From IMG/VR virus record IMGVR_UViG_3300042934_001314, positions 1 to 20,060 of that record: a stretch of DNA of 20,060 bases; one strand, given 5' to 3'. Made by a program: the position numbers and the translations under genes. Of this stretch, positions 4,080-16,380 are shown in pieces (positions within the stretch are counted from its first letter, which is position 1; each line of letters opens with the position of its first letter). The notes below the pieces were generated by a model that saw only the letters and a program-made list of their open reading frames with translations, searched no databases and was not told where the DNA came from. Origin of the DNA: a virus.

Positions 4080-7000
4080 ATGAACATTGCAGAACTCGGC
4101 GTCAAGATCGACTCGGCCGACGCTATACAGGCCAAAACCAGCCTGGATGAAATGGCGAAGGCCGGCGGCCGCGCCGAGCAGTCCGCCGTTTCGTTGATGA
4201 ACGAAATGCAGGCGCTGGAGAAATCGCTCTCTACCAACGCCAAAACCACGCAGGATCTCGCGAAGCAGCGAGAAGCGTTGGCGAAGCTGACCAGGACCGG
4301 TGCCTATGGCGAAGCTGAAGCCGTGAAGATATCGGCGCAGCTCGACAAGCAGCAGGTGGCGCTGGCCAAGTCGGCCATGGATGAACAGAAGGCACTGACC
4401 AGCCTGCTGGGTGCCATCGACCCGGCCCGCGCCGCACTGGCGAAGCTGGATACCCAAGTAGAGCAACTCGGCAAGCACCTGGACGCCGGCCGCATCAGCC
4501 AGGATCAGTACAACGCCGCGCTGGGCAAGATCGATAAGGATTACGACAAGCTCAATAAAACCACCACCGGCTTCGAAAAGTTGCGCCTCGGCTCGCGCCA
4601 GGCGCAGGAAAATGTGGTGCAGCTGGGGAATGCGCTGTCGTCCGGCGACTGGGGAAGCGGTGTTCGTGCTGTTGCTCAGTTGGGCGCCGGTGCAGGGGAA
4701 GGCGCGGCGGGCCTGCTGGCGATTCTCGGCCCGCTGGCGCTGGCCACTGCCGCCGTTGGCGGACTGGCATACGCTTTTTACAAGGGCAGTGAGGAGCAGG
4801 ATAGCTACAACAAATCGCTGATACTCACCGGCAATTACGCCGGTGTGAGTGCGGGACAGCTCGGCGATATGGCGCGTCAGGTCAGCGCGACTGTCGGCAC
4901 AACCGGGCAAGCCGCTGAGGTTCTCGCGCTGCTGGCCGGTAATGGAAAGATTGCTGGCGAGAGCTTTACGGGCATCACTCAAGCCGCGGTGTCGATGCAG
5001 GAAGCGACCGGCAAAGCCGTGAGTGAGACTGTCGCGGAGTTCGCCAAGCTCGCCGACGACCCGGTCATGGCATCTGCCGCGCTGAATGAGCAGTACCACT
5101 ATCTCACCGCGTCGGTTTACTCGCAGATCACCGCACTGGAGAAGCAGGGCGACCATGCCGGCGCCGTGAAGCTGGCTACTGAGTCGTTCGCCGATGCGAT
5201 CAACGAGCGCACGCCGCGGATCCTCGAGAATCTGAGCTTTTGGGAGAAGGGATACAACGCGGTTGCTCGGGCTGCTGATGGATTGAAGAATATCGGGCGC
5301 AGCGATATCGGAGCTGATATCGAGCAAGCCCGCCGGGACTTGGCGGGCGCTCAGGCGGGTGACGTAGGCCTCTTCCAGAACAAGCAGGAGATGATCGACC
5401 TCTATCAAAATCGGCTCAACATGCTCGAGGATCAGCAGGCCGCAGAAGCCGATATTGCCAAGTGGCAGGGTGAGCAGGCGAAGGCACAAGGCGATGCCGT
5501 CTCGGCGATGGCGAAGGTCGACGCTCTCACCAAGTCGGCGTGGACGAATGAGCAAAAGCGCACCGACGCGATCAAGGAGTACAAGCGGCAGCTCGAAGAT
5601 ATCCGCAAGGTCGCACCCAACGACCCCCGTCTGAATCAGGCCGCGATCGACAAGAACCTGGCGAACATCAACGACCAGTTCAAGGATTCGAAAGCGCCGG
5701 GCTCGCAGGTAGATCTGACCAGTTTCAACAATGCCAAGAACGACCTTGCAGCTATCAGCGCTGAGTACAAAAACGCTCAGAAGGAACTGGACGCAGCGCA
5801 GAAGGCTGGACTTGTTTCTCAGGCCGACTACGCCCTGAAGCGTGAAGCGCTGATCGGCAACGAGCGGGACGAAGTGACCGCGGCCTACGAGGTTGAGATC
5901 GCTGCGCTGGAAGCCGCGAAAGCCAAAAAGACCACCTCTGCCGCGCAAAGCATTCAGCTGGACCAGAAAATTGCCGATGCTCGCGCCGCCATGGTCAAGG
6001 CGCAAAAGGTAGCTGACAGCCAGCTCGAAGTGCTGGCCACCAGCGAAACCGGAAGGCTGGCGAAGCAGGAGCGAGCGATTTCCTCCTACGTTCAGGCCTT
6101 GAGCCAGCAGCAGCGAGCATTGGAACTGGCAGGGCAGCGGGCGGTAGTCGGCGTTGGCCAGGGGGATCGGCAGAACGCCCTGAACGGTGAACTGAACAGC
6201 CAGCAAGATCGGTTCGCTCAGCAATCGCTCGAGCTGGAAAATCAGAAAACCGACCCGTCGCGGAATATGTCGGAGGAAGAGTTCGCTCGAAAATCGCAGG
6301 CTCTTGCGGATGCGAACAAGGCGGCTACCGACCAGATTCGCCAGAACTACGCGGATGTGGAGGCGGCGCAGGGTGATTGGACGAAGGGCGCGACATCGGC
6401 TTGGGCCAACTATTTGGATTCGGCGAGCAACATCGCGGGCCAGACGAAAACCCTGTTCGGCAACGCCTTCAGCTCCATGGAGGACGCAGTCGTCAACTTC
6501 GCCATGACCGGGAAGCTGTCGTTTGCTGACTTCACCAAGTCGATTCTGGCGGATATGGCGCGCATCGCGACCCGTCAGGCCAGTTCGGCATTGCTGAGCA
6601 GCCTCGTCGGTGCTGCCACCAGTTACTTCACCGGCGGGAGTGGCGGCAATGGGCTGGCGGCTGGGTCTGCGGGCGCGACGTCCTCCAATCTCGGCGCCTC
6701 CTCGGCGGGCTATTCCAGCAGCTACTTTCCGCAGGCGCTCGGCGGTGCCTGGTCATCGGGTGTGCAGATGTTTGCCAACGGCGGCGCTTTCACCAACAGC
6801 ATTGTCAGTACGCCGACAGCTTTCGGGATGGCCGGCGGCAGGACGGGCGTGATGGGGGAGGCAGGGCCGGAGGCGATCATGCCACTGACCCGGACCTCCA
6901 GCGGCAAGCTCGGTGTTCTCGCTGCTGGTGGCGGCTCTGGGACTACGATCAGCATCAGCGCGCCGGTCACGGTGGTAACTGAGGACCGTGGGTCTCAAGG

Positions 7001-7130
7001 CATGCAGATCGACCAGCAAGCGCTCTCGAAAAACCTTCAATCGCAAATGCAGGCCGTGGCCGAGAAAGCCGTCGCTGACTCTTGGCGAGCGGGCGGCACC
7101 AGCTTTCGAAATGCCAATGGGAGGGCCTGA
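4080..7130 (+). CDS. H: Tail length tape measure protein (lambda gpH-like)
   Basis: A 1016-residue protein with ATG 4080 preceded by AAGGTGA. The first ~190 residues are heptad-rich coiled coil (many Lys/Glu/Ala/Gln). A hydrophobic segment spans about 208-234 (LLAILGPLALATAAVGGLAY). A helical middle follows (for example 'NAKNDLAAISAEYKNAQKEL'). The C-terminal part has the lambda-type tape measure signature 'GDWTKGATSAWANYLDS', then 'FADFTKSILADMARIATRQ', and a glycine/serine-rich end with 'FANGGAFTNSIVSTPTAFGM' and 'GVMGEAGPEAIMPL'. Its length sets the tail length and it is ejected ahead of the DNA, with the hydrophobic segment possibly helping membrane passage. The stop overlaps the next start (TGATG). 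A 720-codon antisense frame inside it is a composition artefact. Confidence 0.93.
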   Translation: MNIAELGVKIDSADAIQAKTSLDEMAKAGGRAEQSAVSLMNEMQALEKSLSTNAKTTQDLAKQREALAKLTRTGAYGEAEAVKISAQLDKQQVALAKSAMDEQKALTSLLGAIDPARAALAKLDTQVEQLGKHLDAGRISQDQYNAALGKIDKDYDKLNKTTTGFEKLRLGSRQAQENVVQLGNALSSGDWGSGVRAVAQLGAGAGEGAAGLLAILGPLALATAAVGGLAYAFYKGSEEQDSYNKSLILTGNYAGVSAGQLGDMARQVSATVGTTGQAAEVLALLAGNGKIAGESFTGITQAAVSMQEATGKAVSETVAEFAKLADDPVMASAALNEQYHYLTASVYSQITALEKQGDHAGAVKLATESFADAINERTPRILENLSFWEKGYNAVARAADGLKNIGRSDIGADIEQARRDLAGAQAGDVGLFQNKQEMIDLYQNRLNMLEDQQAAEADIAKWQGEQAKAQGDAVSAMAKVDALTKSAWTNEQKRTDAIKEYKRQLEDIRKVAPNDPRLNQAAIDKNLANINDQFKDSKAPGSQVDLTSFNNAKNDLAAISAEYKNAQKELDAAQKAGLVSQADYALKREALIGNERDEVTAAYEVEIAALEAAKAKKTTSAAQSIQLDQKIADARAAMVKAQKVADSQLEVLATSETGRLAKQERAISSYVQALSQQQRALELAGQRAVVGVGQGDRQNALNGELNSQQDRFAQQSLELENQKTDPSRNMSEEEFARKSQALADANKAATDQIRQNYADVEAAQGDWTKGATSAWANYLDSASNIAGQTKTLFGNAFSSMEDAVVNFAMTGKLSFADFTKSILADMARIATRQASSALLSSLVGAATSYFTGGSGGNGLAAGSAGATSSNLGASSAGYSSSYFPQALGGAWSSGVQMFANGGAFTNSIVSTPTAFGMAGGRTGVMGEAGPEAIMPLTRTSSGKLGVLAAGGGSGTTISISAPVTVVTEDRGSQGMQIDQQALSKNLQSQMQAVAEKAVADSWRAGGTSFRNANGRA

Positions 7131-8228: not shown

Positions 8229-8993
8229 ATGCGAAAGCACATCTTGAACGCGATCCAGGAGCACGCGACGGCCGAGTACCCGAAAGAGTGCTGCGGTCTG
8301 CTGCTGGCGATCGGACGCAAGCAACAATATTTCCCCTGCACCAACGTCTCTACTGAGCCCAACGAAGAGTTTCGAATCGATCCCGAGCAGTACGCGGCGG
8401 CCGAAGAAGTGGGCGAAGTGATTGGCGTTGTGCATTCGCATCCGGACGCTACCAGCAGGCCGTCACCGCGTGACCTCGCCATGTGCGAAGCCACCGCGAT
8501 GCCTTGGCACATACTCAGTTGGCCGGAGGGCGATCTGAGAACTGTCATGCCATCTGGCGACGTGCCGCTGCTGAAGCGGCCATTCGTGCACGGGGCCTGG
8601 GACTGCTGGCAAGTATGCGCCGATTGGTACAAGCGCGAGTGGGGGCTCGAATTTGAAGCCTTCAAGCGCGTAGATGGCTGGTGGGAGAGCAAGGACAATA
8701 CCAGCCTGTACGAAGCGAACTACGAGGCCGCCGGCTTCTACCGCGTCGACCAACCGCAGCGCGGCGACATGATCGTGATGGAAGTTGGGCGCACCGTTTA
8801 CCCGAACCACGCGGGGATTTTCCTCGGCGCGGATCCGTCTTTGCCAGGTGAGGATGCGGCGACGTTCGGGCCGGGTCCATTCCTGCTGCACCACCTGTAC
8901 GGCAGGCCATCTGAGGTCATTGTGTTTGGCGGGCCGTGGCTCGACCGGACACGCTTGATTCTTAGGCACAGGGACGCACAAATAACCACTTGA
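8229..8993 (+). CDS. K: Tail tip peptidase, lambda gpK-like (JAB/MPN + NlpC/P60)
   Basis: A 254-residue, two-domain protein. AAGGAG at 8218-8223 precedes ATG 8229. The N-terminal domain (1-110) has a complete JAMM metal-binding motif: E20, H69-S-H71-P, S79 and D82. The C-terminal domain (about 115-250) is NlpC/P60-like, with catalytic Cys in 'WDCWQV' (C126) and His in 'NHAGIFLG' (H194). Lambda gpK has the same architecture. In long-tailed phages this protein is thought to process tail tip components or cut peptidoglycan during DNA entry. Both active sites look intact. This is the last core tail gene before the first cargo island; in lambda the I gene would follow directly. Confidence 0.93.
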   Translation: MRKHILNAIQEHATAEYPKECCGLLLAIGRKQQYFPCTNVSTEPNEEFRIDPEQYAAAEEVGEVIGVVHSHPDATSRPSPRDLAMCEATAMPWHILSWPEGDLRTVMPSGDVPLLKRPFVHGAWDCWQVCADWYKREWGLEFEAFKRVDGWWESKDNTSLYEANYEAAGFYRVDQPQRGDMIVMEVGRTVYPNHAGIFLGADPSLPGEDAATFGPGPFLLHHLYGRPSEVIVFGGPWLDRTRLILRHRDAQITT

Positions 8994-9018: not shown

Positions 9019-9255
9019 ATGCAACAAAGCTACGCGATGACTATACAAAACCTGTTCACGATCGACGAAGGAGTCTTGTCTGGAGGAGTCGCGGAAATTG
9101 CGATCCTTGATGGCTCACTCGAAGTAGACCGAGTTAAGCTTTCAGGGAAGGTTGGCCCCGGTGAAAGCGTTTATCGCCGCGAGTACATAGGCAAGCCGGG
9201 CCTGAGGGCCGAGCTTCTGACAGAAGTTGGTCAGATCACATTTACGGCGATCTGA
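9019..9255 (+). CDS. Small protein of unknown function, paralogue of the 11932-12168 gene
   Basis: A 78-residue protein starting MQQSYAMTIQNLF. CGGAGA lies 5-6 nt before ATG 9019. It is clearly related to the product of 11932-12168: both have an N-terminal 'TI.(N/H)DL' type strand, a central 'ILD/VLD' strand, a basic patch, and a shared 'R(E/K)Y.GKPGL.A.L' motif near residues 54-67. No signal peptide, membrane segment or catalytic motif is visible, so it is probably a small beta-rich cytoplasmic protein. It begins 25 nt after the K-like stop and is the first gene of the first cargo island. Its base composition appears somewhat less GC-rich than the tail genes. A cargo (moron) role is inferred; the function is unknown. 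Confidence 0.7.
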   Translation: MQQSYAMTIQNLFTIDEGVLSGGVAEIAILDGSLEVDRVKLSGKVGPGESVYRREYIGKPGLRAELLTEVGQITFTAI

Positions 9256-9264
9256 CCTCGAAAG

Positions 9265-9516
9265 TTAGCCGCGCGGCTCTTCCTCTCTGATGAATTCATC
9301 TGTGCCTGGAAGGTGGAAGACGTAGCTTACCTTGTAGCCCTCTCCCATGGTCCGCGCTCTTGCCTCTGCATCAGCTTTTGTAGGGAATGCTCCTACCATG
9401 ATGTTTGGCTCTTCACGCACTACACCCCATGTGTAGATCCAATCTTTTTTGCTCTGGGCATATTCTTCGTTGCTCACATCGACCTGCAGGTCATAAACGC
9501 GCCGAAATTGGCGCAA
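9265..9516 (-). CDS. Small minus-strand cargo protein, unknown function
   Basis: An 83-residue protein on the minus strand, convergent with the preceding gene. The only well-supported start is TTG (9514-9516), with AAGGA 6 nt upstream; no in-frame ATG lies near the N-terminus and a TAG closes the frame at 9577-9579. The sequence begins MRQFRRVYDLQVDVS and has an aromatic 'KKDWIYTWGVV' segment, then 'VGAFPTKADAEARARTMGEGY' and 'KVSYVFHL', a beta-alpha-beta layout loosely like a SPOR-type fold, although this is weak. Its C-terminus is acidic. The leader holds a 10-bp hairpin that would bury the ribosome-binding site, and further upstream is the conserved block shared with two other minus-strand genes. 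A longer antisense frame (9313-9888) is judged a shadow. Confidence 0.6.
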   Translation of the reverse strand: MRQFRRVYDLQVDVSNEEYAQSKKDWIYTWGVVREEPNIMVGAFPTKADAEARARTMGEGYKVSYVFHLPGTDEFIREEEPRG

Positions 9517-9517
9517 T

Positions 9518-9550
9518 CCCAGTCCTTGGGCTTGCAGGCAAAGGACTGGG
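9518..9550 (-). promoter_or_regulatory. Perfect 10-bp hairpin covering the ribosome-binding site of the minus-strand gene
   Basis: CCCAGTCCTT (9518-9527) and AAGGACTGGG (9541-9550) are exact inverted repeats separated by 13 nt. In the minus-strand transcript, the 3' arm contains the AAGGA ribosome-binding site and ends 1 nt before the TTG start, so folding would mask translation. There is no T run on either side, so it is not an intrinsic terminator. Confidence 0.6.
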
Positions 9551-9576
9551 GGAATCCGTTGCGTGAGGGCAAGAGG

Positions 9577-9636
9577 CTACTATCGGAGGTCGGCGGGGCG
9601 TTACTGTGCTTTCGTCCACGCTGGATGGGCGCACAG
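9577..9636 (-). repeat. Conserved upstream block, copy 1
   Basis: This lies upstream of the 9265-9516 minus-strand gene. It shares CTACTATCG, a 12-nt gap, and GCGTTACTG...TTCGTCCAC (plus-strand reading) with copies at 10773 and 12814. Over a 22-bp part it matches copy 2 at 17 positions and copy 3 at 16. Its right end (9621-9636) is a CTG-N10-CAG dyad at exactly the same offset as in copy 3. It ends 1 nt before a forward -35-like hexamer, so it could also influence the DUF4236 gene. Confidence 0.65.
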
Positions 9637-9637
9637 C

Positions 9638-9665
9638 TTGGCGAAAATCATAATCGGTTTATGAT
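9638..9665 (+). promoter_or_regulatory. Sigma70-like promoter for the DUF4236 gene, overlapped by an inverted repeat
   Basis: TTGGCG (9638-9643), a 16-nt spacer and TATGAT (9660-9665) make a plausible sigma70 promoter pointing at the gene starting at 9695. A perfect 7-bp inverted repeat, ATCATAA (9647-9653) and TTATGAT (9659-9665) with a 5-nt centre, covers the spacer and the whole -10 element. That is the usual layout of a repressor operator. The promoter would let this cargo gene be expressed independently of the late operon. Confidence 0.55.
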
Positions 9666-9694
9666 GGCTTTTCGCTTTCTCAAGGATTTGAGCC

Positions 9695-9976
9695 ATGGCC
9701 TTTCGCATTCGGAAAAGTTTCAAAGTCGCCCCAGGCATTCGCCTCAATGTCAGCAAGAGCGGCCTCAGCACATCGATAGGCGGAAAAGGCGCGACGGTGA
9801 ATCTGAGCAAGCGTGGGACGAAAGTAACGAGCAGCCTTCCGGGAACGGGGCTTTCTTCATCCAAGCTGTTTGGCGGAGCGAAGAGTAGCGTTGCTAAAAC
9901 TGCGCCTACACCTTTATGGGCACACATCGTGACATGGCTGATAATAGTCGGCGTTCTAGGGGCGATCTTCAGCTGA
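9695..9976 (+). CDS. DUF4236 family protein with C-terminal membrane segment
   Basis: A 93-residue protein. AAGGA (9682-9686) precedes ATG 9695 by 8 nt. Residues 1-55 (FRIRKSFKVAPGIRLNVSKS, then 'GLSTSIGGKGATVNLSKRGTKVT' and LPGTGLS) are a textbook DUF4236 domain, a short glycine/serine-rich beta domain of unknown function found in many bacteria and prophages. Residues about 73-92 (PLWAHIVTWLIIVGVLGAIF) form a single membrane helix, so the DUF4236 domain is probably held at the inner membrane. It has its own promoter-like sequence with an overlapping inverted repeat and its own terminator, the hallmarks of an autonomous cargo (moron) gene. Its role could be a lysogen-expressed trait such as exclusion, but nothing in the sequence proves this. 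Confidence 0.85.
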   Translation: MAFRIRKSFKVAPGIRLNVSKSGLSTSIGGKGATVNLSKRGTKVTSSLPGTGLSSSKLFGGAKSSVAKTAPTPLWAHIVTWLIIVGVLGAIFS

Positions 9977-9978
9977 AA

Positions 9979-10008
9979 CAAAACCCAGCCATCTCGCTGG
10001 GCTTTTCG
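9979..10008. terminator. Bidirectional intrinsic terminator between convergent genes
   Basis: CCCAGC (9984-9989) and GCTGGG (9996-10001) form a stem with a 6-nt loop. It is followed by CTTTT on the plus strand and by TTTTGTTT on the minus strand. It sits between the end of the DUF4236 gene (9976) and the end of the convergent minus-strand gene (10017), so one hairpin can serve both. Confidence 0.75.
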
Positions 10009-10016
10009 TACCAAGC

Positions 10017-10739
10017 CTAAGATTTCGGCAGGCTCAGCAGTACGCCCACCATTGGACGATCTCCCCAGCCACCGGAGAGCTTGGCTTTTGTCTGGAGCCG
10101 CCAAGTACCGGTCACCCCCATGTCGGCGACTTGCTGTTGAAAGTTTGCGGCTGCGCCACGTGGCAGATAACCGACTTTGAAACCTTCAATATAGACGGCG
10201 CACGCATTTGGGTCATGCGGGTTGTCTGGCTCGGCGACTATGTCTGCTACGAAGTCATTGTCAGTAGCCATGTGGCGGCCGTTTCGTAATCTTCGAAGTG
10301 CTGGCTGGTAGTAGGATTCGCCAACGACGTCGAAGGTACATGCATGTCCTCCGGTGATCTTCCCTGTGAGCGGCGGGAGATCTACCTCTACCGGATTGTC
10401 TTTCTTGGCGCGCGTCTTTTTCGGCTTCTCCGCTACAGGTTGGGCGGGCGGTATGGAATGTGTCGCCACTGGCTTTTGAGCATTGGCCTCCAAAGCTTGG
10501 GATCTAACAGGCGGCGAGTGCCGAGTGTTCGCGACGACCACAAGACGAGTAGCCCGTTCATAACTGATCTTGAGAAGTCGAGCCAACTCATGAGGCGTTT
10601 TGGGGCCGCTTATGGCTATCAGGTTCTTAGCTTCAATGAGTAAGTTGTCGTCCAGGCAGTCGGTTGTCGAGTCGGAGACCGAATCAGCAGCCGTTGTCGA
10701 TCTTGAGTTGGGCGAGAAGATACGCCTCCACCACGACAT
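10017..10739 (-). CDS. FtsK-gamma-like winged helix fused to HIRAN-like domain
   Basis: A 240-residue minus-strand protein. GGAG precedes ATG (10737-10739) by 6 nt. Residues about 30-70 (LLIEAKNLIAISG, 'HELARLLKISYERATRLV') follow the FtsK gamma winged-helix pattern, which in FtsK reads DNA orientation sequences. Residues 75-125 are a Pro/Lys-rich linker ('EKPKKTRAKKDNP'). Residues about 135-238 resemble a HIRAN domain: 'FDVVGESYYQPALRRL', 'DNDFVADIVAEPDNPHDPNA', 'VYIEGFKVGYLPRGAA'. HIRAN domains of HLTF-type proteins bind DNA ends, and stand-alone forms occur in phages. A DNA-binding role is therefore likely, with the target unknown. It carries copy 2 of the conserved upstream block 34 nt before its start and ends at a shared terminator. 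It is transcribed against the tail operon. Confidence 0.75.
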   Translation of the reverse strand: MSWWRRIFSPNSRSTTAADSVSDSTTDCLDDNLLIEAKNLIAISGPKTPHELARLLKISYERATRLVVVANTRHSPPVRSQALEANAQKPVATHSIPPAQPVAEKPKKTRAKKDNPVEVDLPPLTGKITGGHACTFDVVGESYYQPALRRLRNGRHMATDNDFVADIVAEPDNPHDPNACAVYIEGFKVGYLPRGAAANFQQQVADMGVTGTWRLQTKAKLSGGWGDRPMVGVLLSLPKS

Positions 10740-10772
10740 CTAAAGCTCCTTTGCTTGATTTTGGACGAAACC

Positions 10773-10815
10773 CTACTATCGAACCGTTTCAGCGCGTTAC
10801 TGGGGATTCGTACAG
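10773..10815 (-). repeat. Conserved upstream block, copy 2
   Basis: Upstream of the HIRAN-like gene. It has CTACTATCG (10773-10781), identical to copy 1, a 12-nt gap, then GCGTTACTGGGGATTCGTAC (start 10794). A CTG-N10-CAG dyad spans 10800-10815. On the minus strand the left part reads CGATAGTAG, in which GATAGT could be a weak -10 element; no matching -35 is seen. Confidence 0.65.
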
Positions 10816-10861
10816 CAGCGTTCCGGTGTAACCTTGGACCTTTCCCACAGGAGTGACCTGC

Positions 10862-11284
10862 ATGAAATTGATCGTAGGAGCGCTGGCGGTAGCGCTGTTG
10901 GCGGGGTGTGCGACTTCGCCGGTGCCTTCCAATGAAGCCAAGCAGGCGCCGGCCAGTCAGTTGTCGGCCTACCAGTCCAAGCCATCAGGGGCATATGGGA
11001 CACTGCAAGTGATCCGCGACTCTGGGCAGACCGGAAGCCTTTGTTCAATGGCCGTTTTTATCGATGGCAAACAAGCTGCCAAGCTCGACCCGGGTCAGAA
11101 GGCATCTTTCTATCTGCCGCCTGATTCAGTTGCAGTTGGCGCCGCTTACACGGGCTCTGGCATCTGCTCTATGGGTGCAGCCCGAGTGGAGCGGGAAGCG
11201 ATCGTGAAAGACGGCGCGGTCAAGAAATACCGAGTTTTCACCGGGGGCGATGGGCAGATCGACATACTGCCCACGACTCTCTGA
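10862..11284 (+). CDS. Small secreted lipoprotein (DUF2846-like), cargo gene
   Basis: A 140-residue protein. An in-frame GTG at 10853 touches the ribosome-binding site AGGAG (10848-10852), so ATG 10862, 9 nt away, is the better start. The N-terminus MKLIVGALAVALLAGC is a lipoprotein signal with lipobox L13-A14-G15-C16. Ala at +2 favours sorting to the outer membrane. The mature part has a flexible Ser/Ala/Gln linker and then a beta domain ('YGTLQVIRD', 'SMAVFIDGKQAAKLDPGQKA', 'YRVFTGGDGQ') resembling DUF2846/PEGA-like surface folds. Two Cys (C61, C102) in similar CSM contexts could form a disulfide. It lies divergent to the HIRAN-like gene and ends in a terminator. A surface-altering or superinfection-exclusion role is plausible but inferred. 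Confidence 0.85.
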   Translation: MKLIVGALAVALLAGCATSPVPSNEAKQAPASQLSAYQSKPSGAYGTLQVIRDSGQTGSLCSMAVFIDGKQAAKLDPGQKASFYLPPDSVAVGAAYTGSGICSMGAARVEREAIVKDGAVKKYRVFTGGDGQIDILPTTL

Positions 11285-11288
11285 ACAG

Positions 11289-11310
11289 ACCGCCTCCGGG
11301 CGGTTTTTTA
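11289..11310 (+). terminator. Intrinsic terminator closing cargo island 1
   Basis: ACCGCC (11289-11294) and GGCGGT (11299-11304) form a stem with a 4-nt loop, followed by a run of six to seven T. It is preceded by ACAG and followed by TTGCCTGGAGAATGGC directly in front of the gpI-like ATG. The same stem and leader recur at 12874 and, with a different stem, at 18377. Confidence 0.88.
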
Positions 11311-11326
11311 TTGCCTGGAGAATGGC

Positions 11327-11935
11327 ATGTGCTCAGCAATCACCTACACGCCAATGACGAACGTCATGTTGTCCGGTTCGCTTGCGAAGAAGTTTTTTCG
11401 AAGCAAGCCATTCCTTCTCGATGGCGGATCGGCAGTGGAGGTGTTCCGTGCGCTCAATGCGACCATCGATGGTTTCGCCGAAGAAATTAAACGACTGGAG
11501 CGCCTTGGGCTGAAGTTTGCGATCTTCCGAAATCGCGAAAACATCGGGATGGATGGATTCGATCTCGGCGGTACGCGCGAAATTCGCATTGTCCCGGTGA
11601 TTGCCGGGAGCAAGCGTGCGGGCGGGCTGCAGACCATCATCGGCACAGTGATGATCGCCGCAGCCTATGTACTGTCATTCACTCCATTTGCAGCCGCATC
11701 TCCGTTTTTGTATGCGGCCGGCGCGTCGATGGCGATCGGCGGCGTGATTCAAATGCTCAGCCCTCAAGCCTCAGGCCTGAAGCAAAGCGCATCCCCCGAA
11801 AACTCACCGTCCTACGCCTTCGGCAGCGCCAAGAACACCACGGCCAGCGGCAACCCGGTACCGATCTGCATCGGCGAGCGCCGGTGGGGCGGGATGATCG
11901 TTTCAGCCTCCATCCTGGCGGAGGATAAGGCATGA
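11327..11935 (+). CDS. I: Tail assembly protein, lambda gpI-like
   Basis: A 202-residue protein. TGGAG (11316-11320) precedes ATG 11327 by 6 nt. It has the lambda tail I family pattern: an N-terminal 'VMLSGSLAKKFFRSKPFLLD' ubiquitin-like region, 'IRIVPVIAGSKRAGG', a hydrophobic glycine/alanine-rich stretch (about 100-144), and the conserved C-terminus 'PSYAFGSAKNTTASGNPVPI' and 'GERRWGGMIVSASI'. In lambda, gpI is required for tail tip assembly but is not found in the virion; it is encoded just before J. Here J is displaced about 1 kb downstream by the second cargo island. The stop overlaps the next ATG (ATGA). A terminator lies directly upstream, so expression needs read-through or antitermination. 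Confidence 0.9.
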   Translation: MCSAITYTPMTNVMLSGSLAKKFFRSKPFLLDGGSAVEVFRALNATIDGFAEEIKRLERLGLKFAIFRNRENIGMDGFDLGGTREIRIVPVIAGSKRAGGLQTIIGTVMIAAAYVLSFTPFAAASPFLYAAGASMAIGGVIQMLSPQASGLKQSASPENSPSYAFGSAKNTTASGNPVPICIGERRWGGMIVSASILAEDKA

Positions 11936-12168
11936 CCAAAGTGACCTACAGCATCACCATCCACGACCTGCATCGACTTGAAGGTGGAGTGGTTTGTGGC
12001 GACGAAGCGGTGGTGGCCGTTCTGGATAACGGGCGCGAGATTCATCACGAGCGTTTCACAGGCAAATGCACATCGCCAAGCGGCTACACGCGAAAGTATC
12101 GCGGCAAGCCAGGCCTTACCGCCGCTCTGATCTCTGGCAACTGCTGTATGGAAATCAGTGCGGGATAG
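11932..12168 (+). CDS. Small protein of unknown function, paralogue of the 9019-9255 gene
   Basis: A 78-residue protein with its ATG overlapping the gpI stop by 4 nt; GGAGG lies about 10 nt upstream. It shares with the 9019-9255 product the same length, an N-terminal 'TI.DL' segment, central 'VVAVLD' strand, and 'RKYRGKPGLTAALI' motif near residues 54-67. Differences include three extra Cys (two adjacent near residue 72). The last 14 nt overlap the end of the convergent minus-strand gene (12155-12168). No membrane or secretion signal is seen. That both members of the pair come first in their islands, directly behind a core tail gene, suggests a duplication tied to island formation. Function unknown. 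Confidence 0.72.
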   Translation: MTKVTYSITIHDLHRLEGGVVCGDEAVVAVLDNGREIHHERFTGKCTSPSGYTRKYRGKPGLTAALISGNCCMEISAG

Positions 12169-12778
12169 CGATATCTAAGGACCCCAGCGATGAAAATTCC
12201 ACTCCATCTTTGGTTAGCTTGAGGACGTTGGCCTCTCCGCCGATAAGGACACGCCGCCCCTTCGGCTTCGCGTATTCCAGAAGTGCTTGCACTCTCATGA
12301 TTTCTCTGCCGCTTTCGGGGAAGTTCCAATACTCCACCCCTCCCAGCTCCTCGACGGTCACCACCGGCTTCATTGCGAGGCCGTGGGATAGTCTGGAGGA
12401 TTCGAAGTCCGATGTAGAACGGTAAACATAGCCATGAACAAAGCCAGTATCGTTGGAAATCCCGAAAAGATAGATCGTTGCTGTTTGATCCGAGAGGGCG
12501 GGGAACTCGCGCTGCACTTTGCGCCAGATGGCCTGAAGTCGCTTGGTCGCTTGCTCGTTGAGAGAATCTACATCCGAGGCAGTACGCTGATCATTCACGA
12601 AGGAAATCCAGTGTATGAAGAGGTCGGCGGCACCCGTGCCAGCGGTGATCAGCTTTAGCCTGTCTACCGCAACGGCTTTATTCGCATATCCAAGGAAGCT
12701 TTCTTCAGGTGTTGCGACCAGAGTGTCAGTCACAACAGTTGCTTCGTGATCGTCCGTGTAGAAAAGCAGTGAACTCAT
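12155..12778 (-). CDS. Proteasome-like Ntn hydrolase homologue (Ser nucleophile), cargo gene
   Basis: A 207-residue minus-strand protein. The frame extends upstream to 12928, but ATG 12776-12778 has GGAG 5 nt before it and the extension would cross a terminator, so I start here. It begins MSSLLFYTDDHEATVVTDT. If Met1 is removed, Ser is residue 1, Asp (VTD) is 17, Asn-Lys are 32-33 and a G..AAD motif falls at 46-51: the positions of the catalytic Thr1, Asp17, Lys33 and the SGxxAD region of proteasome beta subunits and HslV, without gaps. The length also fits a beta subunit (about 200). The fold is inferred from this register. The substrate is unknown. Copy 3 of the conserved upstream block, with a CTGT-N8-ACAG dyad, lies 36 nt upstream. 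Confidence 0.72.
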   Translation of the reverse strand: MSSLLFYTDDHEATVVTDTLVATPEESFLGYANKAVAVDRLKLITAGTGAADLFIHWISFVNDQRTASDVDSLNEQATKRLQAIWRKVQREFPALSDQTATIYLFGISNDTGFVHGYVYRSTSDFESSRLSHGLAMKPVVTVEELGGVEYWNFPESGREIMRVQALLEYAKPKGRRVLIGGEANVLKLTKDGVEFSSLGSLDIAIPH

Positions 12779-12813
12779 GAAGGCTCCAAGCCAAGTGGAT
12801 TCGTCGGCAGAGG

Positions 12814-12873
12814 CTACGCTTCGCTCAAGCTGAACCGCTACTGGAGTTTCATCCACTCTGTACAGATACACAG
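12814..12873 (-). repeat. Conserved upstream block, copy 3
   Basis: Upstream of the Ntn-hydrolase-like gene. It keeps CTAC, a 12-nt gap register, and CCGCTACTGGAGTTTCATCC (start 12835), matching copy 1 at 16 and copy 2 at 15 of 22 positions. The right end (12858-12873) is CTGTACAGATACACAG, a complete CTGT-N8-ACAG dyad of the LexA-box type, at the same offset as the dyad in copy 1. The -10-like GATAGT of copies 1 and 2 is not kept here. Confidence 0.6.
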
Positions 12874-12896
12874 ACCGCCCGCGAGGCGGTTTTTTT
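12874..12896 (+). terminator. Intrinsic terminator closing cargo island 2
   Basis: ACCGCC (12874-12879), loop CGCGA, and GGCGGT (12885-12890), followed by T to 12896. It is nearly identical to the terminator at 11289, including the preceding ACAG and the following GCCTGGAG leader in front of the J-like start. Here the preceding CAG is also the last half-site of the CTGT-N8-ACAG dyad. Without antitermination it would block transcription into J. Confidence 0.88.
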
Positions 12897-12912
12897 ATGC
12901 CTGGAGGAAAGC

Positions 12913-15900
12913 ATGGGCGCACCAGCAAAGATCGATATCCAAGGCGAGAAGGGCGGCAGCAGCAAGCCGAAGTCGCCGACCGAAGCCAGCGACAGCCTGC
13001 GCTCGACTAACCTGGCCAAGCTGCTGATTGCCGTGGGCGAGGGTGAATTCGACAGCGTCCCGACCGATTACGACATCTACCTGGACAACACGCCGATCCG
13101 CGATGCCAGCGGAAACTACAACTTCCCGAACGTGAAGTGGGACTGGCGGCCGGGCTCGGTGGATCAGACCTACATCCCGGGCATTCCGTCTGTTGAGAAC
13201 GAGACGTCGCTGAACATCGAACTGCGCAGCGATTCGCCGTGGGTACGCTCGATCACCAACACCCAGCTTTCGGCCGTGCGCATGCGCTTGGCCTGGCCAT
13301 CGCTGCAACGCTCCGATGACCAGGGCAATGTCGGCGGTTACCGCATCGAGTACGCAATCGACGTCGCAACCGATGGCGGCGCCTATCAGCAGGTGCTGGT
13401 GGATGCGGTCGACGGCAAGACCACCACGCGCTACGAGCGCTCGCGCCGCATCGATTTGCCGGACGCCACCACTGGCTGGCAGATCCGCGTGCGCCGTCTG
13501 ACGCCGAACCAGAACACCAACAAGATCGCCGACACCATGCTGGTTGCCGGCTACACCGAAGTCATCGACGCCAAGCTGCGCTACCCGAATACCGCGCTGC
13601 TCTACATCGAATTCGACGCCGAGCAGTTCACCAACATCCCGGCCGTGACCGTGAAATGCAAAGCGCGCCGCTGGATGGTGCCGAGCAACTACGACCCGAT
13701 CCTGCGTACCTACACCGGGACATGGGATGGCTCGATGAAGTCTGCCTGGACCAATAACCCGGCGTGGATTACATACGGCATCTGCACCGAAGACCGCTTC
13801 GGCCTGGGCAAACGCATCAAGCCGTTCATGGTCGACAAGTGGGAGCTGTACCGCATCGCCCAATACTGCGACCAGCTGGTGCCGAACGGGCTAGGCGGTC
13901 AGGAACCGCGCTTCCTCTGCGACATGAACCTGCAGGGCAAGGCTGATGCGTGGTCGCTGCTGCGCGACATCTCGGCGATTTACCGGGGCATGACTTACTG
14001 GGCGCAGGGCCAGCTGGTGATGCAGGCGGACATGCCGCGCGCGCAAGACTTCGACTATGTGTTCACCCGTTCGAATGTGATCGACGGAAAGTTTTCGTAC
14101 GGCAGCGCCTCGGCGAAAACTCGTTACACCCGGGCGCTGGTCAGCTACGACAACCCGGCGAACAACTACGACACCGATGTAATCCCGTTCGCTGACCTGG
14201 ATCTGCAACGCCGCTACGGCGACCGGCCGACCGAGCTGAGTGCCATTGGCTGCACCCGCGCATCCGAGGCCCAGCGTCGTGGCAAGTGGGCGATCCTCAG
14301 CAACAACCAAGATCGCACCGTCTCGTTCAAGACCGGCATGGAAGGTGTGATCCCGCTGCCCGGCCACATCATCCCGGTGGCGGATTCGCTGCTGGCAGGC
14401 CGTGAAGTGGGCGGCCGGATCTCGGCAGTGGCGGGGCGCGTGATCACGCTCGATCGCGACACTCAGGCCAAGGCCGGCGACCGGCTGATTATCAATCTCC
14501 CGGGCGGCCGCGCTGAAGGTCGCACCGTGCAGAGCGTCAACGGCCGAGCCGTCACCGTCACGGTTGCCTACAGCGAACCGCCGGTGGTGCAGTTGCAGTG
14601 GGCGCTCGATGCCGATGATCTGGCAATCCCGCTCTACCGTGTACTGCGCACCAAGCGCACCACCGAGGGCGATTACGAAATCAGCGCGCTCCAGTTCGAG
14701 CCGAGCAAGTTCGCTTTCATCGACACCGGCGCACGCCTGGAAGAACGCCCGATCAGCGTGATCCCGATCACCGTCGTTCCGGCGCCGGCGAGCGTAGCGT
14801 TGTCGTCGACTTCGTCGGTTGTGCAGGGGCTGGCCGTGGCCACCATGACGATCACCTGGCCTGCCGTGGATGGCGCGGTGGGCTACGACATTGAATGGCG
14901 CAAGGACAGCGGAAACTGGATCAAGCTGCAGCGCACCGGGATGACTAACGTTGATGTGGTCGGCATTTATGCCGGTGCCTACGTGGCCCGCGTTCGCGCG
15001 GTGAGCGCGTTCGACATCACGTCACCGTGGCGCAACTCGATCCTGACCAACCTCAGCGGTAAGCAGGGGCTGCCGCCGGCGCTCGCATTCCTTACCGCGA
15101 CGCCGCTTCTGTTCGGCATTTACCTCAAGTGGGGTTTTCCTGCTGGCGCCGAGGACAGCCAGCGCACGGAGATTTGGTACGGCCCGACGACCGAGTTGGC
15201 TGCCGCGACCAAGCTGACAGATCTCGCCTATCCGCAGAGCGATTTCTCCATGCTCGGGCTTGCCGCCGGTGTGACCTTCTATTTCTGGGGCCGCATCGTC
15301 GACAAGATCGGCAACATCGGGCCGTGGTATCCGATCGGTCTTGGCGTGCAGGGCCAGTCCAGCTCGAATGCGGGCGACATTCTAGAAATGATTGCTGGCC
15401 AGATCGGGCGAACGGAGTTGGGCGAAGATCTCCTCACCGAGATCGACAAAATCCCCAGGCTACAAGAGCAGATCGACAATATCGCCGACGCGCTCGAGTA
15501 CGACCCAGCTCTGACCTATCTCAAAGGGGACACCGTTCGCGTTGGTCGGCGCCTCTATCAGGCCGAGCAAGCGGTACCGGTAAACACGCCGCCGCCCAAT
15601 CCAACCTACTGGGTCGATATCGGCCAGGTGCTGGAAGAGGCCAACGCGCTGGCGGCTCAGGTCTCGCAGAACACCTTGGAAATCGATCAGCAAGGCGAAC
15701 AGTTGAACGCGCAGGCGGCGAAGCTCGACGGCGTGTACGTGCAAGTGAATCCCTCACTTGCCGGTGACACGTCCGGATTCGCTGGTTCTGATCAGGTCTA
15801 TGTCGGGGTTTGGTCCGAGCAGTCGGCGAGACTTGAGGACGGCATTGCCACCGCGAAGAGCATCGAAACGGTGCGGGCTGAGGTCAACCAGAACAGCGCA

Positions 15901-16380
15901 ACCGTTCAAACGGTCAGCCAATCCGTCGCGACTTTGGACGGAAAGGTTTCAACGAGCTGGTCTGTGAAAATGCAGGTCACCGCAGACGGAAAGTACGTGG
16001 CGGCAGGTGTGGGGCTCGGCATTGAAAATGGTCCGGCTGGGTTGCAAAGCCAGTTCTTGGTCGGCGCTGACCGGTTCGCCATCGTCAACACCATTGCCGG
16101 CGGCGCCATCTCGGTGCCGTTTGCGGTGCAGGGCGGACAGGTCTTCATGAACTCGGCATTCATTCAGGACGCCTCGATCGGAAACGCCAAGATCGGTTTC
16201 TTCATTCAGTCGGACAATTACATCGCGGGCGTCCAGGGATGGCGCATCGACAAGGCCGGCAACTTCGAGTTGAACAGTCCGTTGGGGGGAGGCGCTCGCC
16301 AGACCATCAACAACAACGGCGGCAAAGTGTTCGATGAGAACGGCGTGAAGCGCTACCAGTGGGGGAATCTCAACGCATGA
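12913..16380 (+). CDS. J: Tail tip / host specificity protein, lambda gpJ-like
   Basis: A 1155-residue protein. TGGAGGA lies 7 nt before ATG 12913. Residues 1-600 are the conserved J hub region ('DSLRSTNLAKLLIAVGEGE', 'YGICTEDRFGLGKRI', 'GMTYWAQGQLVMQADMPR'). About 620-815 hold two fibronectin type III-like repeats ('ATMTITWPAVDGAVGYDIEW' in the first). About 861-910 is a small carbohydrate-binding-like module ('LTYLKGDTVRVGRRLYQAEQ', then 'YWVDIG'). A coiled-coil stretch follows, then a DUF1983-type central straight fibre domain (about 985-1122) and a short end. J forms the central tail fibre that binds the receptor, so the C-terminal third should be the host-range region. The gene ends in an ATGA overlap with the next. 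Confidence 0.93.
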   Translation: MGAPAKIDIQGEKGGSSKPKSPTEASDSLRSTNLAKLLIAVGEGEFDSVPTDYDIYLDNTPIRDASGNYNFPNVKWDWRPGSVDQTYIPGIPSVENETSLNIELRSDSPWVRSITNTQLSAVRMRLAWPSLQRSDDQGNVGGYRIEYAIDVATDGGAYQQVLVDAVDGKTTTRYERSRRIDLPDATTGWQIRVRRLTPNQNTNKIADTMLVAGYTEVIDAKLRYPNTALLYIEFDAEQFTNIPAVTVKCKARRWMVPSNYDPILRTYTGTWDGSMKSAWTNNPAWITYGICTEDRFGLGKRIKPFMVDKWELYRIAQYCDQLVPNGLGGQEPRFLCDMNLQGKADAWSLLRDISAIYRGMTYWAQGQLVMQADMPRAQDFDYVFTRSNVIDGKFSYGSASAKTRYTRALVSYDNPANNYDTDVIPFADLDLQRRYGDRPTELSAIGCTRASEAQRRGKWAILSNNQDRTVSFKTGMEGVIPLPGHIIPVADSLLAGREVGGRISAVAGRVITLDRDTQAKAGDRLIINLPGGRAEGRTVQSVNGRAVTVTVAYSEPPVVQLQWALDADDLAIPLYRVLRTKRTTEGDYEISALQFEPSKFAFIDTGARLEERPISVIPITVVPAPASVALSSTSSVVQGLAVATMTITWPAVDGAVGYDIEWRKDSGNWIKLQRTGMTNVDVVGIYAGAYVARVRAVSAFDITSPWRNSILTNLSGKQGLPPALAFLTATPLLFGIYLKWGFPAGAEDSQRTEIWYGPTTELAAATKLTDLAYPQSDFSMLGLAAGVTFYFWGRIVDKIGNIGPWYPIGLGVQGQSSSNAGDILEMIAGQIGRTELGEDLLTEIDKIPRLQEQIDNIADALEYDPALTYLKGDTVRVGRRLYQAEQAVPVNTPPPNPTYWVDIGQVLEEANALAAQVSQNTLEIDQQGEQLNAQAAKLDGVYVQVNPSLAGDTSGFAGSDQVYVGVWSEQSARLEDGIATAKSIETVRAEVNQNSATVQTVSQSVATLDGKVSTSWSVKMQVTADGKYVAAGVGLGIENGPAGLQSQFLVGADRFAIVNTIAGGAISVPFAVQGGQVFMNSAFIQDASIGNAKIGFFIQSDNYIAGVQGWRIDKAGNFELNSPLGGGARQTINNNGGKVFDENGVKRYQWGNLNA

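Follow-up and report, generated by a model that had tools for sequence, protein, structure and literature searches.

The window, i.e., the whole stretch of DNA analyzed, is a complete virus record of IMG/VR (20,060 bp) that contains a lambda-like phage tail region, and additional genes occupy the K-I and I-J junctions of this region, three of them pointing backward (Table 1). The question raised by this locus is whether the sequence block found upstream of these three cargo genes is a shared regulatory element. From sequence comparison, the block is very probably a promoter for accessory ("moron") genes lying backward among the tail-operon genes of lambda-like Pseudomonas phages.

Table 1. Coordinates of the tail genes, cargo genes, block elements, and leader hairpins in the window.
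Feature	Position	Strand	Details
Tape measure	4080-7130		
Tail genes M, L			listed between tape measure and K
Tail gene K	8229-8993		
Cargo gene 1	9265..9477	-	70 aa from GTG 9477 (83 aa if TTG 9516); phrog_4280
Hairpin 3	9481..9492	-	most relatives TGACC-TGGA-GGTCA with Shine-Dalgarno; window loop TGCA
Hairpin 2	9499..9514	-	GCGCC-6-GGCGC
Hairpin 1	9518..9550	-	CCCAGTCCTT...AAGGACTGGG
-10-like hexamer TAGCCT, copy 1	9574..9579	-	39 nt from box start
Box (20-bp core), copy 1	9599..9618	-	plus-strand core CGTTACTGTGCTTTCGTCCA; minus strand TGGACGAAAGCACAGTAACG; predicted -51 to -32
Cargo gene 2	10017..10739	-	240 aa; HIRAN domain PF08797, 31.3 bits (cut-off 24.7)
-10-like hexamer TAGGGT, copy 2	10770..10775	-	
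Box (20-bp core), copy 2	10795..10814	-	cores CGTTACTGGGGATTCGTACA; TGTACGAATCCCCAGTAACG
Tail gene I	11327-11935		
Cargo gene 3	12155..12778	-	207 aa
-10-like hexamer TAGCCT, copy 3	12811..12816	-	
Box (20-bp core), copy 3	12836..12855	-	cores CGCTACTGGAGTTTCATCCA; TGGATGAAACTCCAGTAGCG
Tail gene J	12913-16380		

Regarding the window itself, the blocks upstream of all three cargo genes were found at the positions and with the spacing given in a first-pass annotation of this DNA, the CTAC element beginning at 9577, 10773, and 12814, i.e., with equal spacing in the three copies. Copies 1 and 2 have the 9-mer CTACTATCG in common, as had been reported, and the best ungapped three-way agreement of the upstream regions reproduces the 13 invariant positions out of 22 that had been counted by hand. 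In the shuffled-sequence test that had been proposed as a possible refutation, 13/22 was never attained in 300 dinucleotide shuffles, which gave a maximum of 12 (once), 11 six times, and typically 9. For a pattern built on the three copies, 0.09 matches are expected in the window, a figure that is circular since it comes from the same copies. Within the window alone, the block is significant, not overwhelming; its recurrence outside the window is, at the level of sequence, the decisive evidence for it.

The search beyond the window that had also been proposed revealed that the block recurs widely in Pseudomonas phages and prophages. The pattern can be found in 24 viral stretches with the spacing originally described and in 81 when the spacing is freed to 6–30 nt, where it is almost exclusively 14 or 15. 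When genomes of 84,980 bacterial and archaeal species were scanned, ten matches were returned, in Pseudomonas in every case, and a sequence profile search detected the block in 80 of 399 Pseudomonas species. Sites are counted here as distinct sequences; with recent ancestors in common among prophages, the counts do not stand for independent origins. No description of the element was found in the open-access literature.

Read on its own strand, the block consists of TGnAyGrAnnnCCAGTAnC followed by 17–18 mostly variable bases and then by TAGTAGCnTnnTGCC, with TGCC directly after the hexamer TAGCnT. As some letters had been set in the initial searches, the recount relied on the left core only: of 178 distinct cores from the fetched Pseudomonas phages and prophages, 169 have TAnnnT, usually TAGCnT, at an offset of exactly 38 or 39 nt, counted from where the core begins, and 0 or 1 have it at any other offset. 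The same spacing is observed in 58 of 59 cores of the loci (L279 onward) that were retrieved via a hairpin leader, independently of the block sequence. T1, A2, and T6 of a sigma70-type -10 hexamer are found at a constant position, and we infer from these alignments that the housekeeping sigma factor uses TAGCnT as its -10; the coordinates -10 and -51 to -32 are predictions that presuppose this assignment. The "CTAC-type 9-mer" of the first-pass annotation does correspond to the -10 region, but the conserved unit is the minus-strand hexamer TAGCnT instead, a definition that takes in copy 3 too, since the 9-mer of copy 3 differs while its TAGCCT is kept at offset 39, where the hexamer stands in all three window copies. 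A -35 near TTGACA is absent at 16–18 nt, this place being taken by GTAACG or TAACGC (3 of 6 matches or fewer), and the block sites were not reported by a consensus promoter scan of the window.

With regard to orientation, 149 of the 169 hexamer-bearing sites are antisense between tail genes and none is sense, the remaining 20 being without a recognizable tail gene in reach. In Pseudomonas genomes, from which 40 stretches were fetched and 41 sites examined, tail genes were recognizable at 31 sites, and the block is antisense at all 31. The next start codon mostly lies at +69 to +83, or at about +138 when the hairpin leader intervenes. Terminator-like hairpins on the block strand can be found just upstream at 13 of 84 sites (3% in controls). 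At about nine sites the T run of the terminator stops 10 nt or less from the box, leaving no space for another promoter, so that the block is the only candidate there. Block-linked genes that differ from one another occupy the K-I and I-J junctions and the one before the tape measure; like morons, they lie between essential late genes and are variable among related phages.

The proteins encoded downstream are mutually dissimilar, as had been noted for the three in the window: 197 of them, including a few probably wrong ORF calls, fall into about 39 blast clusters, almost none of which are linked by profile comparison. Searches with Pfam, NCBIfam, and PADLOC recovered HIRAN, GNAT, a weak aspartyl-protease match, and little else; sampled cargo had no match in NCBIfam, and the majority of the sampled proteins belong to no known family. 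Since most of these unrelated genes share one two-part promoter-like sequence, the cargo reads as a swappable and possibly co-regulated set and not as random clutter. Related phages that keep the genes and not the block had been named as contrary evidence, and here the outcome depends on the gene. The HIRAN homologues in three relatives (L029, L008, and L126) have no directly preceding block and come after a terminator-like hairpin ending another stretch, whereas the homologues of the 207-aa protein have kept it in the three found (L060, L195, and L237), two of them flagged by the pattern and L060 by inspection of the sequence. No fold is claimed for this 207-aa protein because its AlphaFold model is poor (mean pLDDT 48). 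The label "terminase large subunit" that it receives from PHROG 13702 is doubtful, given the location of the gene in the I-J junction and of its homologues beside K. The start of cargo gene 1 is most likely the GTG and not the alternative TTG, which is inside the conserved hairpin leader.

The leader of copy 1 is a second element, separable from the block and absent from the first-pass annotation. In copy 1 and in many relatives, CCCAGTCCTnnGCCTGCAAGCCCAAGGACTGGG, GCGCC-6-GGCGC, and TGACCTGGAGGTCA follow each other in this order, the last adjoining the start codon; the Shine-Dalgarno of the window copy is weakened by the loop of its third hairpin. The leader was detected at 153 distinct sites, of which 140 are antisense to tail genes and 13 are without an orientation call, and the start codon lies 72–74 nt past the hairpin start in 130 of the 153. 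It comes after a block at 68 sites and after the end of a same-strand gene at 72, with an overlap of 12. In MT836437 and MT836498, it separates a first block-driven gene from a second gene, which is not the same in the two. The commonest cargo under the leader is a fast-evolving 80-aa family with the motif PFExGVxxAL (L010:1846-2091, L058:8857-9102, and relatives), for which four helices are predicted (pLDDT 85) and no PDB match to the model was found.

In hairpins 1 and 2, paired and compensatory cells exceed both shuffles and slid controls; the double-sided pair changes, four in number, are not unusual (77 of 500 shuffles), and the covariation support for these two hairpins is moderate. The pairing of hairpin 3 survives changes, e.g., TGATC/GATCA, in two sequences, and the window copy of the leader folds 2.6 sd below shuffles. 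The leader gave no Rfam match above the gathering score and no match in plasmids. Elsewhere in the region, the 3' end of the lipoprotein gene and its terminator (11193-11309, plus strand) have a sub-threshold rsmX match (30 bits, gathering 56), probably by chance. The usual presence of the Shine-Dalgarno in the last hairpin suggests that the leader gives a second, translational control.

While the predicted sigma70-like -10 lacks a good -35, the 20-bp box at -51 to -32 would substitute for it. The poor -35 and the position and conservation of the box are reminiscent of activator-dependent phage promoters, and the box would most likely act by binding an activator. With an antisense direction and a promoter of its own, the cargo could be made with the late operon off, e.g., in a lysogen, and its transcription would avoid sense readthrough into the tail genes. 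In a subset of sites including window copy 1, the transcript would then cross the three-hairpin leader, the last hairpin of which usually carries a Shine-Dalgarno. The conserved promoter or leader on one side and the tail genes on the other may serve as homologous flanks for gene swapping.

Regarding the factor that would bind the box, a comparison of gene content across 18 block-bearing phages brought out structural genes, NinG (17/18), and one diverse early family resembling ribbon-helix-helix (RHH) proteins (18/18), and no convincing conserved phage-encoded activator. This small RHH-like protein (G001:47850-48209 and 17 homologues), the sole non-structural family present in all 18 and also found in 25 phage records, is unlikely to read the box because its putative DNA-contact strand varies and the site is constant. 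A host regulon was rejected as well, since the sites fetched in the 399-genome scan mostly fall among tail genes; weak host matches that recur are attributed to chance, lying inside the reading frame of an AmpD-like amidase. A conserved RNA structure spanning the core promoter was likewise discarded, as the promoter halves are not complementary. The earlier proposal of a shared promoter or operator opposing the late operon draws support from the fixed -10 spacing, the near-fixed start distance, the lack of sense sites among 169, and the 39 or so clusters, whereas the co-regulation that it included is something we only infer, no regulator having been found.

Alternatively, the block could be a constitutive sigma70 promoter that has spread by recombination with its genes, the box being a -35/UP substitute with no dedicated regulator; this concerns the regulation of the block and not its identity as a promoter. 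Such a promoter would account for the clear -10, for the regulator not being found, and for sites in prophage-type contexts only, but a 20-bp box with many near-invariant positions (some of which were fixed by the search) next to a free spacer exceeds its needs and the -35 match is poor, which leaves it a possible, rather doubtful explanation. An operator controlling both strands is very unlikely: every block of the window does sit between divergent genes, and an imperfect inverted match of 25 nt links copies 1 and 2, but the neighbor on the sense side (J, lipoprotein, I, or tape measure) differs in both type and distance while the antisense start is near-fixed, and a plus-strand terminator separates copy 3 from J.

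Constant elements beside variable genes, several in a row in some phages, also recall the attC-like recombination or insertion sites of cassette systems. The single orientation wherever it could be judged, the -10 hexamer, the near-fixed distance to the start codon, and the non-complementary halves of the core promoter make this very improbable. The outer letters of type A sites (CTGTACGAATCCCCAG) fit a LexA or a Las/Rhl box (CTG-N10-CAG, CT-N12-AG), but the type B copies (GTGGATGAAATGCCAG), to which window copies 1 and 3 belong, lack the initial C, and the interior, where conserved, is asymmetric, so that hardly any weight can be given to this reading.

The reading of the block as a moron promoter with an upstream box can be compared with known systems. 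Lambda lom and bor and the morons of the HK97 group are extra genes amid essential late genes, and described morons are thought to carry their own promoter and terminator. To our knowledge, each of them has an individual promoter; in contrast, a single promoter family and a single leader family here serve many unrelated genes genus-wide, in antisense orientation to the tail operon. The Mu C/mom, P2 Ogr late, and lambda cII-dependent promoters have a -10, a poor -35, and a box at about -35 to -55, and the block likewise combines a -10, a poor -35, and a conserved upstream box. We know of no resemblance of its box sequence to the Mu C/mom, P2 Ogr, or lambda cII boxes, and, unlike in those systems, a cognate activator gene was not found among the 18 phages compared. 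As in anti-CRISPR (acr-aca) loci, including those of Pseudomonas phages, small unrelated phage proteins stand behind their own promoter (PMC9410906), which is a predicted one here. However, acr-aca promoters have inverted repeats within the -35/-10 core that are bound by an Aca repressor (PMC9410906), whereas the conserved columns of the block are without a dyad (in alignments judged by eye), no aca gene was identified among the genes sampled, and the cargo is antisense to the tail operon.

It can be hypothesized, with somewhat less than even confidence, that a dedicated activator-dependent promoter and a separable translational leader form a genus-wide cargo platform serving any small gene. 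If so, the platform would be a common switch for the exchangeable, mostly uncharacterized small proteins of Pseudomonas tail-operon phages. In any case, the block offers a genome-wide handle on accessory genes in Pseudomonas prophages, any gene behind it being a candidate for a role in lysogeny, exclusion, or anti-defence. The timing of moron expression that it implies can be tested, and it raises a concrete question, namely which factor reads TGnAyGrAnnnCCAGTAnC.

Other features can be found around the cargo genes of the window. Two 78-aa paralogues (9019-9255 and 11932-12168, plus strand; phrog_38193) are each convergent with one minus-strand cargo gene, the second overlapping the 207-aa gene by 14 bp, and the association of 78-aa gene, 83-aa-like gene, and block is seen again in relatives, at either junction. 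A repeated stretch containing a terminator and a ribosome-binding site (11285-11338 and 12870-12924, 76–80% identical) precedes I and J, its second copy placing a plus-strand terminator immediately ahead of J within the late operon. Finally, a LexA-like CTG-N10-CAG sequence, CTGTACAGATACACAG at 12858-12873, adjoins copy 3, and in relatives (L031, L073) the similar CTGTACAGCG stands ahead of several copies close to J.
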